48,752 bases of DNA from assembly GCA_024642505.1 (NCBI GenBank), contig JAHEAZ010000015.1:1-48752 (forward strand), in the 5' to 3' direction. A model generated the notes under the pieces. It was given only the letters and a program-made list of their open reading frames with translations, was not told the origin of the DNA and ran no database searches. Below are positions 1,877 through 8,603 of this stretch, piece after piece (position 1 is the stretch's first letter; each line of letters opens with the position of its first letter). Source of the DNA: Gammaproteobacteria bacterium. Its GTDB lineage: Bacteria > Pseudomonadota > Gammaproteobacteria > Steroidobacterales > Steroidobacteraceae. The position numbers and the translations under genes are program-made.

Positions 1877-1954
1877 ATGGACAATCGCCCGACACGGCTT
1901 GCGACGATTCGCTGGTGGTGGCACCGCTCTTCGGAGTGGTCGTCGGGCGCGTAA
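1877..1954 (+). CDS. trpL: trp operon leader peptide
   Basis: A 25-codon ORF runs from ATG 1877 to TAA 1952-1954. Codons 13-15 (1913-1921) are three consecutive TGG Trp codons, and codon 21 (1937-1939) is a fourth. The peptide around them reads IRWWWHRSSEW. It precedes a terminator/antiterminator pair and then trpE. In proteobacterial trp attenuation, scarcity of charged tRNA-Trp stalls the ribosome on such codons and allows read-through into the structural genes. No clear Shine-Dalgarno sequence precedes the ATG; with the promoter proposed here the transcript would be nearly leaderless. It is too short for routine gene calling. The function is strongly supported by codon content and position. 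Confidence 0.88.
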   Translation: MDNRPTRLATIRWWWHRSSEWSSGA

Positions 1955-1988
1955 GCATTTTTTCGATACGAACCCGACCCATCTCCGA
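1931..1988 (+). promoter_or_regulatory. trp antiterminator pairing region
   Basis: Bases 1931-1947 can pair with 1973-1988. TCGGAG (1931-1936) pairs with CTCCGA (1983-1988), TGG (1937-1939) with CCA (1979-1981), and GTCGGG (1942-1947) with CCCGAC (1973-1978). That is 15 base pairs with small bulges. The structure uses the 5' arm of the downstream terminator, so the two are mutually exclusive. A ribosome stalled on Trp codons 13-15 leaves 1931-1947 mostly free, while one reaching the stop at 1952 covers it. This is the expected logic of tryptophan attenuation. Confidence 0.8.
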
Positions 1989-2012
1989 GCAGGTGCCGGG
2001 GGTGGGTTTTTT
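1977..2012 (+). terminator. trp attenuator (intrinsic terminator)
   Basis: A 10-bp stem forms between ACCCATCTCC (1977-1986) and GGGGGTGGGT (1998-2007), including two G-U pairs, with an 11-base loop. It is followed by an uninterrupted T run through 2012. It lies 23 bases after the leader-peptide stop and 37 bases before the trpE start, and competes with the antiterminator helix described above. Confidence 0.88.
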
Positions 2013-2049
2013 GTTGTCCGCTCCCCGCTGCCGGTGACACGAGGAGCTC

Positions 2050-3434
2050 ATGAAAGCGCCGTTCGACATTGCCGCGGACCTCGATACCCCGGTCTCCGCT
2101 TATCTGAAGCTGGAGCCTTTCAAGCCCCGTTTCCTGCTGGAAAGCGTCGAGGGCGGTGAGCGGCTAGCCCGCTACTCGTTTATCGGTTTCGGTGATTGCC
2201 TGGAGGTACGGCTCGACCGCTCCGGTCTGAGGGTCGGCCGCTCGATGCGGCCCATGCCCGGCAACCGCAACGAGCTGCTTGCGGAACTGCGCAGCGCGTT
2301 GAAGGCGGCGCCGCGGCCCCTGCCCGAGGTGGCGGGCGTCCCGCTCGCCGGCGGCCTGGTCGGGGTATCGGCCTATGACCTGGTCCGTTTCTTTGAGCGC
2401 CTGCCGGACAGGGCGCGTCCCGACCTGCCGGTTCCGGATGCCTGCTATCTGGCCCCGAAGTCGTTTCTGGTATTCGACCACGTGACTCGCGGCATGGCGC
2501 TGCTGCATGCCGGACCGGAGTCCGAACGGCAGTTGCTGCGCGCCGAGATCATCCGGGCGTTGCGTGGGCCGGTCCCCTCGCGAAAAGCGCGCATCCGGAT
2601 TGCGCCGCCGATCCCCAGCCTCAGCCGGGACGAGTTCCTGGCGGGCGTAGGACGCACCAAGGAGTACATTGCCGCGGGCGACGTCTATCAGCTGGTGCTG
2701 TCGATCCGGTTCATGGGCCAGTGCGAGCTCGATCCTTTCGAAGCCTACCGGGCACTAAGGCTACTCAATCCCTCGCCCTACATGTACTACTGCGACCTCG
2801 GCGACCTGACCGTCGTGGGTTCCTCACCAGAGGCGCTGGTCAAGCTAAACGCCGGCCGCGCCCAGCTGCGACCGATTGCCGGGACGCGGCCGCGCTCGGA
2901 CGATGGCGCCGTTGACCTCGCCCGGGAGCAGGAGCTGCTGGCGGACGCCAAGGAAAACGCTGAGCACGTGATGCTCGTCGACCTGGCGCGCAACGACCTG
3001 GGGCGGGTAGCCTCGGCCGGCTCGGTGCACGTCGATCCCTATCGGGTGATAGAGCGTTACAGTCACGTGATGCACATCGTGAGCGGCGTCAGCGGCCAGC
3101 TCGCGTCGGGCCGGGACATGTTCGACTTGTTCGCGGCGGCCTTCCCCGCCGGTACGCTGGTCGGCGCGCCCAAGGTGCGCGCCATGGAGATCATCGACGA
3201 GCTGGAGCCAGTGCGCCGCGGGCTCTACGGCGGCACGGTCGGCTATTTTGGCCACGGCGGCGACATGGACCAGGCGATCACCATCCGTACGCTGGTCTTT
3301 TCGGGGGATCGATACGTCTACCAGGCGGGTGCGGGAATCGTTGCCGACAGTTCGCCTGAGGCCGAGCACGAAGAAGTGCTGGCCAAGAGCGCCGTGCTCG
3401 CGCGCGCCCTGAAAATGGCGGAGGAAGGCCTGTG

Positions 3435-3435
<1 letters not shown>
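2050..3435 (+). CDS. trpE: Anthranilate synthase component I
   Basis: This 461-residue protein makes anthranilate from chorismate with ammonia supplied by TrpG, the first committed step of tryptophan synthesis. Near the N-terminus, LLES is the usual Trp feedback-binding motif. The chorismate-binding core is clear, with [18 protein letters not shown], the [19 protein letters not shown] segment, and [20 protein letters not shown]. The ATG at 2050 follows a strong GAGGAG ribosome-binding site. It is somewhat shorter than many TrpE proteins (about 490-520 residues). PabB was considered, but the operon position and the LLES motif favour TrpE. Its TGA overlaps the trpG ATG. Confidence 0.96.
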
Positions 3436-4027
<592 letters not shown>

Positions 4028-4028
<1 letters not shown>

Positions 4029-5062
4029 TGGCGAGGCCACTCAGGGAAACACTGGAGACGCTGCTGGAGCGCGGCGACCTCTCGGAACGGGAGGCGTTCG
4101 AGTTGCTGATCGCGCTGACCGACCAGGACATGGCACCGCCTATGGCTGGTGCGTTGCTCGCTGCGCTGCGTGCCAAGGGCGTGACTGCCGAGGAAGTTCG
4201 TGGCTTCGCAAGCGGAATGCGTTCTCTGGCGCGCCGCCCGCGGATTGCTCCAGGTGCGCCCGTGGCAGACGTTGTCGGCACGGGCGGCGACGGCTCGCAT
4301 ACCTTTAATTTGTCGACCGGCGCGGCGCTGCTGGCTGCGGCGGCTGGCGTGCGCATCGTCAAGCACGGCAACCGCTCGGTCTCCTCGCGTTCGGGCAGCG
4401 CCGACGTGCTGGAGCACCTGGGTCTCAGGCTGCCGCTCGACGAGGAGGCGGCGGGACGCTGCCTGGAGTCGACCGGCTTCACCTTCCTGTTCGCTCCACA
4501 CTATCACCCGGCAATGAAAGCCATCGCGCCGGTACGTGCGGCGCTCGGTATCCGCACGGTGTTCAACTTGCTCGGACCCCTGACCAATCCGGCCGAGGCA
4601 CCCTTTGCAGTAATTGGCGCGTGGAGCCTGGACATCGCGAAGCTGATGGCGGACACGCTGGCCGGCATGCCAATCGAGCGCATGTTCGTGTTGCACGGCG
4701 AGACCGGCTGGGACGAGCCGACGCCTGCGGCACCGTTTGCGCTGTTCGACGTGCACCCGGGATCCGTAGTCCGATACCGGCGCGAGGCGGAGGATTTTGG
4801 TCTGCCGACTTGCAGGCCGGAGCAGCTCAGGGGAGCCGACGCCGCGCACAATGCCGCGAAACTGGCGGAGGTATTGCGCGGCCGGGAACATGGCGCACAC
4901 CGCGATGCGTTGGTGATGGGCGCCGCGCTGGTGCTGGAGGTGACCGGGCTCTCACCTGACCCTCGCGCCGCGGCGCTCGCCGCGGCCGCGGCCATCGATG
5001 ATGGGCGCGCTGCACGGGTCCTCGATGCGCTGGCGGCCTTTGGCGCGACGCAGGACACTTGA
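4028..5062 (+). CDS. trpD: Anthranilate phosphoribosyltransferase
   Basis: This 344-residue protein transfers phosphoribose from PRPP to anthranilate. The PRPP-binding motif is VVGTGGDGSHTFNLST, followed by KHGNRSVSSRSGSADVLE and the anthranilate-site segment FLFAPHYHPAMK. Length and motifs match the family. The ATG at 4028 overlaps the trpG stop as ATGA, indicating translational coupling. The frame is open further upstream inside trpG, but family homology begins at this ATG. Confidence 0.96.
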
Positions 5063-5063
5063 A

Positions 5064-5987
5064 GTGAGCGGATTTCTCGACCAGATGGCGGCGGGTAGTC
5101 GGGACCGTGCAACGTCCGCCAGGGTTCGCGAGCCGCTAGCCACCTTGCGCGCACGCTGCATGGACTTGCCCTCGCCACCGGCGCTGGCGCTGGATGGCGG
5201 CTTCAACCTGATCGCGGAGTTGAAGCTGCGTTCGCCGGCACTCGGTGAACTGGGCAGCGCGAGCGACGACCTGGCGGGTCGCGTGACGACCTATGCGCGC
5301 TCAGGCGCTGCCGCGGTTTCGGTGCTGACCGAGCCGTCGCGCTTTTCCGGTTCGCTGCGACATTTGCGGGACGCGGCGGCCACCCTCGCACCGATGGGTG
5401 TGCCGGCGATGCGCAAGGATTTCCTGGTCGATCCGTACCAGCTGTACGAGGCCCGCGCAGTCGGCGCGGGCGGAGCGCTGCTGATCGTGCGGATGCTGTC
5501 GCACGCTGCGCTCGGCGAGATGCTGGATTGTGCGCGCGAACTCGGTTTGTTCGTTCTCATCGAGACGTTTGACGAGGCGGACATCGCTGCGGCGGAGCGG
5601 GGGATCGTGGCCGCTGCCGGGCGCGGAGGCGGGTGTCTGCCGGAGCGGACGAGTTCGGCTCGCGGAGCGGAGCGGAGCGGAGCGAGCGAAGCTGACGGCC
5701 CGGCCGACCAGCGCCCGCCAGCGGCGGGCGGCATCCTCCTCGGCGTCAACAGCCGCGACCTGCAGACCCTGGCGGTCGTACCGGAGCGCCTCGAGCAGCT
5801 GGCACCGGGTCTGCCACGCGAGTACCCGCGGGTGGCGGAGAGCGGAATGACAACACCTGCCGACGCGGCGCGCATGGTCCGCGCCGGCTACGACATGGTG
5901 CTCGTCGGCGGTGCGCTGATGTCGGCGCCGCACCCAGGTGCGCTGGTTCGGGCCATGCTCGAGGCGGGCAGGGCGGTGGCTGCGTGA
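5064..5987 (+). CDS. trpC: Indole-3-glycerol phosphate synthase with an unusual internal insertion
   Basis: This 307-residue TIM-barrel enzyme closes CdRP to indole-3-glycerol phosphate. The strand motifs appear in order: LIAELKLRSP, VSVLTEP, MRKDFLVDPYQ, ALLIVRML, FVLIETFDEADI, LLGVNSRDLQTL, VAESGM and MVLVGGALM. The start is GTG 5064, two bases after the trpD stop. Between strands 5 and 6, residues about 185-221 form an Ala/Gly/Arg-rich insertion encoded partly by four tandem CGGAG units (5663-5682). Typical proteins have only a short helix there, so the protein is about 40 residues longer than usual. The frame stays open and all catalytic motifs are kept, so activity is likely. It is a stand-alone trpC, not fused to trpF. 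Confidence 0.93.
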   Translation: MSGFLDQMAAGSRDRATSARVREPLATLRARCMDLPSPPALALDGGFNLIAELKLRSPALGELGSASDDLAGRVTTYARSGAAAVSVLTEPSRFSGSLRHLRDAAATLAPMGVPAMRKDFLVDPYQLYEARAVGAGGALLIVRMLSHAALGEMLDCARELGLFVLIETFDEADIAAAERGIVAAAGRGGGCLPERTSSARGAERSGASEADGPADQRPPAAGGILLGVNSRDLQTLAVVPERLEQLAPGLPREYPRVAESGMTTPADAARMVRAGYDMVLVGGALMSAPHPGALVRAMLEAGRAVAA

Positions 5988-6589
5988 AGCTGCTGGTGAA
6001 GGTCTGCGGCATGACGGATTCCGAGTCGCTCGAGGCCGCCATCACGGCAGGCGCAGATGCGATCGGATTCGTGTTTTACGGACCCTCGCCGCGCAATATT
6101 GCGCCGGCGGCTGCGGCGATCCTGGGTGCGAGAGTGCCACCGGGCGTCAGGAAGGTGGCGGTCACGCTGCATCCCGATCAGGGCTTCGTTGACGAGGTTT
6201 TGGCAGCGCTGACGCCGGACGTATGGCAGACAGACGCGGCTGACTTCCATTCGTTGAGGCTGCCGGCGGGAATCGAGCGCTGGCCGGTGTTCCGCAGCGG
6301 CGTGGTGCCAGCCCATTCGCTGCCTTCGAGGCTGCTGTTTGAAGGGCCGCGCAGCGGCACGGGCGAAGTATCCGACTGGAGCCAGGCGGCGGCGCTGGCT
6401 GGTCGCACTGAACTGATACTGGGCGGCGGCCTGACACCGGCCAATGTCACCAGCGCAGTGTCCACGGTGCGTCCTTTTGGTGTCGATGTGTCGAGCGGCG
6501 TGGAGTCGGCGCCTGGGCGGAAGGATCCGGCCCGTATATGGGAATTCGTAACGGCTGCGCGCGAGGCGGCCGCGGGAGTGACGGGATGA
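5984..6589 (+). CDS. trpF: Phosphoribosylanthranilate isomerase
   Basis: This 201-residue TIM-barrel protein catalyses the Amadori rearrangement of phosphoribosylanthranilate to CdRP. The catalytic Cys lies in KVCGMT near the N-terminus. Other family signatures are ADAIGFVFYGPSPRNI, ILGGGLTPANV and the phosphate-binding GVDVSSGVESAPGRKD. The start is GTG 5984, overlapping the trpC TGA. Its own stop overlaps the trpB ATG. Length is normal. Confidence 0.95.
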   Translation: MKLLVKVCGMTDSESLEAAITAGADAIGFVFYGPSPRNIAPAAAAILGARVPPGVRKVAVTLHPDQGFVDEVLAALTPDVWQTDAADFHSLRLPAGIERWPVFRSGVVPAHSLPSRLLFEGPRSGTGEVSDWSQAAALAGRTELILGGGLTPANVTSAVSTVRPFGVDVSSGVESAPGRKDPARIWEFVTAAREAAAGVTG

Positions 6590-7830
6590 GTTATGCGATC
6601 GACCCCGGGCAGGCGAAGGCGCTGCTCGAAATGGAACAGCGCGGCAGTTTTCCCGATCCACGGGGCCGCTTCGGGCCTTTCGGCGGACGCTACGTGCCCG
6701 AAACACTGGTCCCGGCGCTCGACCGGTTGGAGGACGGCGTGCGCCGTTACCTGCACGCGCCCGAGTTCCAGCAGGAGTTCTCCAGCGAACTGCACAGCTG
6801 GGCCGGCCGCCCGACGCCGCTCACTCACGCGCGCGAGCTGTCGAGGCGATGGGGCGCGGACGTGTGGTTGAAACGCGAGGACCTCGCTCACACCGGCGCG
6901 CACAAGATCAATAACGCGATCGGGCAGGCGCTGCTGGCCAAGCGACTGGGTGCGAAGCGCATCGTTGCGGAGACGGGCGCCGGTCAGCACGGGGTCGCGA
7001 GTGCCGCTGCCTGCGCCCGCTTCGGCATGCCCTGCGTCGTCTATATGGGTGCGGTGGATACCGAGAGACAGGCGCCAAACGTAGGCCGGATGAAACTGCT
7101 CGGAGCCGAAGTAATTCCCGTGACGAGCGGCGACCAGACGCTGCGCGCGGCGATCGACGAGGCGTTGCGCGACTGGGTGTCCGACCCAGCCGGTACCTAC
7201 TACCTTCTCGGTTCGGCGGTGGGTCCGCACCCATACCCATACCTGGTGCGCGAGCTGCAGTCGGTGATCGGCAAGGAAAGCCGGCAACAGATTGTCGAGC
7301 GTGCTGGCGGACTGCCGGACGTGGCGGTCGCCTGCGTCGGCGGCGGCTCCAATGCCATCGGCCTGTTTCATCCGTTCATCAACGATGCCACTGTCGCCCT
7401 GCTTGGAATCGAGGCAGGTGGTCGCGGTCCTGGACTCGGCGACAACTCGGCCACGCTGAGCTTCGGCAGGCCCGGTGTGCTGCAGGGTTGCTACACGATG
7501 ATCCTCCAGGACGATGACGGGCAGGTCCAGGAAACACACTCTGTCTCTGCCGGGCTCGACTACTCCGGCGTGGGGCCGGAGCATGCTCTGCTGATGGCCA
7601 CGGGCCGGGTGACCTACCTGCAGGCCACCGATGACGAGGCCCTCGATGCGCTGGCGGAGTGTTGCCGCGCGGAAGGTATCCTGCCGGCGATCGAGACGGC
7701 GCACGCGTTTGCCGGGGCGCGGCGCTGGGCGCGGGATAATCCGGGCGGACGCATACTGATTGGCCTGTCCGGGCGCGGCGACAAGGACATGCCGACTCTG
7801 CAGAAGACGCTGCTGAGGGGAAAGCTGTGA
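6586..7830 (+). CDS. trpB: Tryptophan synthase beta chain
   Basis: This 414-residue PLP enzyme condenses indole with serine. The PLP lysine (about Lys107) is in HTGAHKINNAIGQ, with AETGAGQHG, the phosphate-binding GGGSNAIG, and the C-terminal LSGRGDKD. The ATG at 6586 overlaps the trpF stop (ATGA). The same frame is open slightly upstream, but conservation starts here. It works as an alpha2-beta2 complex with TrpA, encoded next with overlapping codons. Confidence 0.97.
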   Translation: MSYAIDPGQAKALLEMEQRGSFPDPRGRFGPFGGRYVPETLVPALDRLEDGVRRYLHAPEFQQEFSSELHSWAGRPTPLTHARELSRRWGADVWLKREDLAHTGAHKINNAIGQALLAKRLGAKRIVAETGAGQHGVASAAACARFGMPCVVYMGAVDTERQAPNVGRMKLLGAEVIPVTSGDQTLRAAIDEALRDWVSDPAGTYYLLGSAVGPHPYPYLVRELQSVIGKESRQQIVERAGGLPDVAVACVGGGSNAIGLFHPFINDATVALLGIEAGGRGPGLGDNSATLSFGRPGVLQGCYTMILQDDDGQVQETHSVSAGLDYSGVGPEHALLMATGRVTYLQATDDEALDALAECCRAEGILPAIETAHAFAGARRWARDNPGGRILIGLSGRGDKDMPTLQKTLLRGKL

Positions 7831-8603
7831 TGCAGCCGCACGAGACCATTGCGCACGCCATCGCCGCGGCAGCCCGGAAGGGTGCGCCCGCGATCGTCGC
7901 GTTCCTGACTGCCGGCTTTCCACGCAAGCAGGACTTTGCGGCACAACTCGCTGCGATCGGCGAGGCGGCCGACGTGGTTGAAATCGGGGTGCCTTTCTCC
8001 GATCCCATGGCCGATGGCATGACCATCCAGCGCTCGAGCCACGCCGCCCTGCAGCAGGGGATCTCGTTGCAATGGATCCTCGACACGCTCAGCGAGCTGC
8101 CGACCAGGCCAAGTGCCCCGCTGCTGCTCATGAGCTATCTGAATCCTCTGCTGGCCTATGGACTCGATCGATTGCCCGGGGCGGCGCACGCGGCCGGTAT
8201 CGCCGGCTTCATCGTGCCGGACCTGCCGTTTGAGGAAAGCGATGAGCTACGCACCGCGCTCGAATCGGAGGGCCTCGCGCTGGTACAGATGGTCACGCCG
8301 GTCACGCCAGCGACCCGGCTGGCGATGCTCTGCCAGTCGGCGCGCGGCTTCGTCTATGCAGTGACCATGACGGGGACTACCGGCAAAAGCGTGGCGGTTC
8401 CCGACGATGTTCTGGATTACATGGATCGGGTGCGCGCAATCTCGCCTGTGCCGGTCTGCGCAGGCTTCGGGATTCGCAGCGCGGAGCAGGTTGAGCGCAT
8501 GGCCGGGCACGTCGACGGCGTCGTAGTCGGCTCGGCGCTGGTCGAGGTGCTCGAACGCGGCGACGATCCAGCCAGTTTCCTGAGGGGACTGCGAGGCGGC
8601 TGA
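7830..8603 (+). CDS. trpA: Tryptophan synthase alpha chain
   Basis: This 257-residue TIM-barrel protein cleaves indole-3-glycerol phosphate and passes indole to TrpB. The catalytic Glu and Asp are in VEIGVPFSDPMADG; most relatives have Pro where this protein has Met (ADGMTIQ). GFGIRSAEQV and DGVVVGSALVE form the phosphate site. ATG 7830 follows GAGGGGAAAG and overlaps the trpB stop as TGATG. It is the last gene of the operon; no intrinsic terminator is evident in the 30 bases before the next gene. Confidence 0.96.
   Translation: MQPHETIAHAIAAAARKGAPAIVAFLTAGFPRKQDFAAQLAAIGEAADVVEIGVPFSDPMADGMTIQRSSHAALQQGISLQWILDTLSELPTRPSAPLLLMSYLNPLLAYGLDRLPGAAHAAGIAGFIVPDLPFEESDELRTALESEGLALVQMVTPVTPATRLAMLCQSARGFVYAVTMTGTTGKSVAVPDDVLDYMDRVRAISPVPVCAGFGIRSAEQVERMAGHVDGVVVGSALVEVLERGDDPASFLRGLRGG

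Follow-up and report, generated by a model that had tools for sequence, protein, structure and literature searches.

A predicted ribosome-mediated attenuator with a putatively leaderless leader peptide mRNA upstream of the trp operon in Steroidobacterales

The window, that is, the whole stretch of 48,752 nucleotides analysed here, corresponds to contig C4 in a draft genome of 3.1 Mb and 156 contigs from a member of the Steroidobacteraceae. It contains a tryptophan biosynthesis operon of seven genes on a single strand, in the order trpEGDCFBA, and the region upstream of trpE shows the following features:

1839-1844, + strand: -35 hexamer TTGACC of the putative trp promoter; TTGAC is kept in the 54 of 65 leader regions with a perfect match
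1863-1868, + strand: putative -10 hexamer CATACT, 18 nt after the -35 hexamer and ending 8 nt before the leader ATG
1877-1954, + strand: trp leader peptide ORF of 25 codons, with ATG at 1877 and TAA ending at 1954 (MDNRPTRLATIRWWWHRSSEWSSGA), presumably translated from a leaderless mRNA
1913-1921, + strand: three consecutive Trp codons (stalling site), read directly
1937-1939, + strand: fourth Trp codon, within antiterminator segment 2 (GGAGTGG core)
1919-1945, + strand: 1:2 protector (pause) hairpin, arms 1919-1929 and 1934-1945
1931-1988, + strand: 2:3 antiterminator, arms 1931-1947 and 1973-1988
1976-2012, + strand: 3:4 intrinsic terminator, stem-loop 1976-2008 and T-run to 2012
2041-2046, + strand: Shine-Dalgarno sequence GAGGAG of trpE, read directly
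2050-3435, + strand: trpE, anthranilate synthase component I
3432-8603, + strand: trpG, trpD, trpC, trpF, trpB and trpA, adjoining or overlapping, the rest of the operon

The nearest named records by TrpE are the metagenome-assembled genomes CTSoil_134 (90% identity) and SG8_30 (87%), and the TrpE of Steroidobacter and Peristeroidobacter is about 73% identical to that of the window. The TrpE of Steroidobacterales (2050-3435 in the window) is divergent: it scores 472 bits against the NCBIfam model trpE_most (cut-off 518) and 269 bits against trpE_proteo (cut-off 495), and its best relatives of the class outside the order are about 45-51% identical. A separate origin of the order's trp operon is possible. 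The trpC gene (4998-5987) matches its models over two separate segments, the first of which stops near residue 200, and this suggests an insertion. Upstream of the leader and on the same strand there is a metallo-hydrolase gene (730-1710), whose product is similar to the C-terminal portion of Blh, a bifunctional sulfur transferase/dioxygenase (359 bits against a cut-off of 625). Between this gene and the trp promoter lies an inverted pair of a dispersed repeat, at 1710-1743 (CCGGGGACAGTTTACC) and 1807-1840 (GGTAAACTGTCCCCGG), whose right arm extends into the -35 hexamer. A further pair is found in contig C16 (L343), with matches also in C151 (L344), C111, C94 and C60; this repeat resembles a REP/BIME element.

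The original prediction had described a 25-codon leader with three Trp codons in tandem and a fourth downstream, two mutually exclusive hairpins and six T, with the elements lying 37 bases before trpE. Direct reading confirmed each of these elements where it had been placed. The antiterminator is composed of the pairs 1931-1936:1983-1988, 1937-1939:1979-1981 and 1943-1947:1973-1977, and the terminator arms are 1977-1986:1998-2007. The T-run occupies 2007-2012, so that the first of the six T doubles as the last base of the stem, and 37 bases separate its end from the trpE ATG at 2050. The description of the attenuator as complete held in that all parts are present and conserved, but it had passed over the promoter and the 1:2 hairpin. 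Folding, which had been proposed as a check, favoured the element: the RNA of 1877-2016 folds better than its shuffles (z -2.9), of which 1/200 was as good. The 1:2 hairpin of the window reaches a z of only -0.5 against base shuffles. A simple terminator scanner run over 1690-2060 returned no terminator, possibly because its loop limit is 8 and the arms named above leave a loop of 11 nt. Searches with Rfam gave no match in the whole window at the gathering cut-off, nor in 1800-2100 at E up to 10. The prediction had further considered the leader too short for ordinary gene calling and likely absent from standard annotations; E. coli trpL is annotated.

A search for TrpE was made in 79 genomes, that of the window among them, and upstream DNA was taken for 69 of the 78 relatives, which together with the window gave 70 regions. 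The nine relatives excluded before the first count comprise two without a TrpE match (G006 and G064) and seven with a partial or PabB-like match only (G031, G035, G054, G056, G060, G065 and G073). A tandem-Trp leader, defined as a suitably placed short ORF with WW, WWW or WRW, is present in 65/70 of these regions, the window counted. Five regions show no such leader: G002, G003, G052, G058 and G071, and the TrpE of G058 and G071 is only about 50% identical to that of the window. The longest run of Trp codons is three in 43 leaders, two in 19, one in two and four in one. In relatives with an earlier stop of the leader, the position of the window's fourth Trp codon does not form a codon. A terminator hairpin followed by a T-run was found in 61 of the 65 leader regions, its usual form being ACCCATCTCC-loop-GGGGATGGGT. 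Three regions have a leader and no terminator accepted by the program (G029, G057 and G070), and G014 was left out of the terminator counts, the only hairpin found there being spurious. An earlier terminator finder, which had selected the 1:2 hairpin or a different one in part of the genomes, among them that of the window, was replaced. Two of the three regions without an accepted terminator, L167 (G070) and L168 (G057), keep a WWW leader and show a candidate terminator hairpin without a T-run; perhaps these leaders reflect another mode of control, or decay. Among 49 named records, which overlap with the first set, 43 have both the promoter and the Trp leader, and 34 satisfy a strict pattern for the terminator.

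Segment 2 has its GGAG core at a nearly fixed distance from the first Trp codon, 20.7 nt with a standard deviation of 1.9, in the 52/65 leaders in which a simple pattern suffices to read the core. In these 52 leaders the stop codon ends 18 to 54 nt past the start of the first Trp codon (mean 31.6, standard deviation 12.0). With the first distance near-constant and the second variable, it is the stalling place relative to segment 2 that is conserved, and not the end of the peptide.

Two genomes of the window's own genus, G002 and G003, show neither the Trp codons nor the terminator, and both keep the promoter with an ATG 6-7 nt after it. From this ATG to trpE there are 86 nt in G002:C64 (L122) and G003:C57 (L121), versus 173 in the window, and the ORF of 29 codons left over runs into the trpE start with an ATGA overlap in both. 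The loss is likely a deletion in their common ancestor. Since two species of the genus lack the element, its loss is evidently tolerated in this genus, and a copy that is present yet non-working in the window's own genome can be imagined; with all parts intact there, and a score of 80.8 bits (E 3.2e-17) with the covariance model R1 described below, of which the window is one of the 49 members, we regard such a defect as very improbable.

An alignment (A1) was made of 49 of the 61 usable sequences, after exclusion by choice of 12 that were near-duplicate or divergent. On A1 the terminator helix shows 95.0% of cells paired and changes on both sides in 5/11 pairs; all 500 shuffles fall short on each of the five measures, and RNAalifold recovers this helix unaided. 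The antiterminator shows 75.8% of cells paired, versus 39-55% when slid by one to three columns. Its outer helix has 45-55% of cells unpaired per pair, being either misaligned or variable, and its count of double-change pairs is reached by 68/500 shuffles and that of further pair types by 29/500. Taken singly, 45/61 sequences have a segment 2:3 duplex better than that of their dinucleotide shuffles (p < 0.05). The 1:2 hairpin can form, with a mean z of -1.5 against base shuffles and 43/65 leaders below -1. The comparative alignment that had been suggested thus bore out the terminator, through covariation, and the Trp codons, and was weak for the outer antiterminator helix.

Folding was then combined with a model ribosome that covers 12 or 15 nt downstream of the first base of the A-site codon. 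When the full leader is folded at equilibrium, the terminator prevails in almost all sequences, whatever the ribosome state (stalled P < 0.5 in 1/61). As a test of the switch this calculation was abandoned, because it shows none, and it was replaced by partial-transcript folding, in which segment 4 is unmade; this test was chosen after the full-leader result had been seen. Since the terminator wins at equilibrium even with a stalled ribosome, the switch must be kinetic, and in the classical model the choice is made while segment 4 is still unmade. In the partial transcript, a ribosome on the first Trp codon leaves segment 3 held by upstream RNA in 61/61 sequences, and a ribosome on the stop codon does so in 10 to 12/61; the difference between the two states exceeds 0.3 in 58/61. 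Together with the near-fixed spacing of Trp codons and core, these folds support the claim that the positions fit a stalling mechanism. Without a ribosome segment 3 is held in 47/61 sequences (0.98 in the window), and the stalled state exceeds the ribosome-free state by more than 0.3 in only 20/61. The folds therefore do not predict termination on an untranslated leader, unlike the classical model with its 1:2 hairpin.

That segment 3 is held in most sequences without any ribosome would also fit a reading in which the leader is not translated at all, the short ORF next to a terminator being a matter of chance and trpE being either uncontrolled or governed by a Trp-sensing protein of the TRAP or TrpR type. 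The leader peptide has no family match in Pfam or NCBIfam, and a TrpR-related gene is present: PF01371 matches in 35/40 family genomes, and the protein of the window's genome is a YerC/YecD protein (69.4 bits, cut-off 42.2) that reaches 26.7 bits against the TrpR model, with its cut-off of 67.25. However, true TrpR is over the cut-off in none of the 40 genomes (in the control set of 14 genomes, only E. coli passes), and tandem Trp codons at a near-fixed distance from segment 2 in 65/70 regions argue against chance, so that this explanation is very improbable. The search for Trp-sensing regulators covered TrpR; as none exceeds the cut-off, attenuation is likely the main control by tryptophan in these genomes.

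At E up to 1e-3 the covariance model R1 matches 177/198 genomes of the order, 49 of which are alignment members and match by construction. In the 139 genomes outside the earlier sets (G308-G446), at least 128 match; the misses are 10 among those listed and one further, and six of them belong to a single genus, g36, which is also the genus of G058 and G071. Second matches were found in 12 genomes: ten are at the same place on the other strand and two are elsewhere (G445:C197 and G389:C137). With E up to 1e-4 across the class, R1 matches 7/232 genomes, and three of the seven belong to the order. The four matches outside the order comprise L251, in another family, which shows a WWW ORF and a terminator, and three that by eye look like plain terminators. 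The Rfam model RF00513 (Trp_leader, gathering cut-off 41 bits) exceeds its cut-off in none of 30 family genomes and in 1/14 control genomes; sub-threshold matches at the trp leader were obtained in three of the 30 (G010, G013 and G018, E 0.7-1.8). The TrpE search in the class gave 2/124 at 1e-120 and 81/94 at 1e-60, and the matches outside the order from the latter search are roughly 35-54% identical. A scan for Trp-rich ORFs at 28 outgroup loci of the class gave seven matches (L192, L197, L203, L204, L205, L210 and L212), of which L192, L204 and L205 alone look like possible leaders on visual inspection.

The promoter at 1839-1868 is the sole sigma-70-like site found in 1690-2060, where shuffles have a mean of 0.1. 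A perfect TTGAC/ATACT pair, 19-20 nt apart, is present in 54 of the 65 leader regions, and in 54/54 of these the next in-frame start follows after 6-10 nt; in base-shuffled upstream regions a site of score 8 or more, a looser requirement, lies at 5-10 nt in 5/1300 trials. A held-out set was made of 60 further regions of the order, from genomes outside A1, picked from the better R1 matches listed; R1 starts only at the Trp codons and is therefore blind to the promoter. There the perfect promoter was found in 47/60 regions, in all of them 6-10 nt before the start, and four of the five leaders unparsed by the program also have it, at 6-9 nt, which raises the count to 51/60. One of these four, L306, shows a hairpin without a T-run. 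The strict TTGAC/ATACT/ATG pattern occurs at two places in the 3.1 Mb of the window's own genome and at none in a reversed control; the second place (L346, G000:C65:31039-31076) is at the start of an ORF that presumably encodes a YqgE/AlgH-like protein. A pattern of ATACT, ATG and TGGTGG over the 232 class genomes was discarded as evidence, being swamped by chance matches (202/232).

Pairing with the anti-Shine-Dalgarno sequence at -4.5 kcal/mol or better was found upstream of 3/61 leaders, which is rarer than in shuffles (13.6%), versus 43/58 trpE starts, where the starts had been chosen for best pairing, which favours trpE. The 61 leaders scored are those of the 65 that remain after leaving out two with a promoter score of 6 and two whose picked promoter lies more than 15 nt away. 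Transcription from sigma-70 promoters usually starts about 6-8 nt past the -10 hexamer, which would place the 5' end of the mRNA on the leader AUG or no more than about 4 nt from it. Most likely, then, the leader mRNA is leaderless, starting at or near this AUG. The same attenuator could instead be transcribed from a start farther upstream, from another promoter or by read-through from the metallo-hydrolase gene, the TTGAC/ATACT site being secondary. The same-strand gene upstream ends at 1710, the perfect match is missing in 11/65 leaders, the CATACT of the window is not the consensus -10, and the proposed start is placed by consensus only, all of which leave some room for this. Against it stand the spacing of 6-10 nt, which recurs in the first set (54/54) and in the held-out set (47/47, plus the four parsed later), the lack of any second sigma-70-like site in 1690-2060, the scarcity of Shine-Dalgarno-like pairing, and G002 and G003, where the attenuator is lost and the promoter is kept with its ATG. 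An upstream start is accordingly improbable, and a leaderless leader mRNA remains the preferred reading.

We consider it highly probable, on the grounds of the sequence elements, their conservation and spacing, and the folds of the partial transcript, that the region serves the trpEGDCFBA operon as a ribosome-mediated attenuator of transcription, with a leader peptide presumably encoded at the start of a leaderless mRNA and a predicted response to tryptophan in vivo. RNA polymerase would start on the leader AUG itself or at most some 4 nt away, and the leader peptide would be translated from the leaderless mRNA. With ample Trp-tRNA, the ribosome would reach the stop codon and cover segment 2, leaving segment 3 free for the 3:4 terminator pairing. 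When Trp-tRNA is scarce, the ribosome would stall on the Trp codons and cover segment 1; segment 2 would then be free, the 2:3 pairing would form before segment 4 is made, and transcription would continue into trpE.

As the mechanism is classical, the find is mainly one of annotation, and its value in this respect is an element present in 177/198 genomes of the order, which the Rfam trp leader model, applied with its cut-off, does not reach. What makes it useful is the predicted leaderless arrangement, with many natural variants available, whose peptide and stop codon vary among the 52 measured. We would add, as a tentative and rather unlikely proposal, that in Steroidobacterales the main control over the entire trp pathway is an attenuator with a leader lacking any 5'-UTR, that leaderless initiation sets the basal level of termination, that the switch senses the conditions of leaderless translation as well as Trp-tRNA, and that a further function, as in Sinorhizobium meliloti, could fall to the leaderless RNA or peptide once released. 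In the open-access literature searched, no paper on attenuation in Steroidobacter was found, nor, by title, one on leaderless trp leaders in Gammaproteobacteria; comparative papers on proteobacterial attenuation were reportedly written by Vitreschak and by Merino.

Among known systems, E. coli trpL (Rfam RF00513, Trp_leader) likewise encodes a tandem-Trp leader peptide before trpE and uses the scheme of 1:2, 2:3 and 3:4 hairpins, and many Steroidobacterales leaders share its WW(W)R-x-S ending. It differs in that 33 nt separate its -10 hexamer (TAACT allowed) from the ATG, versus 6-10 nt in Steroidobacterales, and in its Shine-Dalgarno pairing of -4.5 kcal, a value that few of the Steroidobacterales leaders reach. 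E. coli also has TrpR, unlike the genomes analysed here at the model's cut-off. Leaderless initiation in attenuation is known in Actinobacteria. In these, attenuators of amino-acid genes also combine a leader peptide and a terminator before biosynthetic genes, in another phylum; there, some components are reported to be missing in many cases, and the term leaderless is absent from the main text (PMC1262725). For trpL of S. meliloti, the 5' end of rnTrpL is reported to begin with the trpL ATG, which may allow it to serve as a leaderless mRNA; transcription repression does not act on trpLE(G), and a role in trans is reported for the leader peptide or sRNA (PMC7298713). The present case resembles it in a promoter that abuts the ATG and in the want of a TrpR over the cut-off in our genomes, and the differences are that S. 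meliloti is an alphaproteobacterium and that only trpE(G) is attenuated there, whereas the full seven-gene operon follows the attenuator in the window (PMC7298713). The Steroidobacterales variants would allow leaderless initiation in attenuation to be tested beyond Actinobacteria and beyond the Alphaproteobacteria (PMC7298713). The mechanism itself is known, being that of an E. coli-type trp attenuator, and the probable leaderless arrangement is a notable variation of it that is itself known in S. meliloti.
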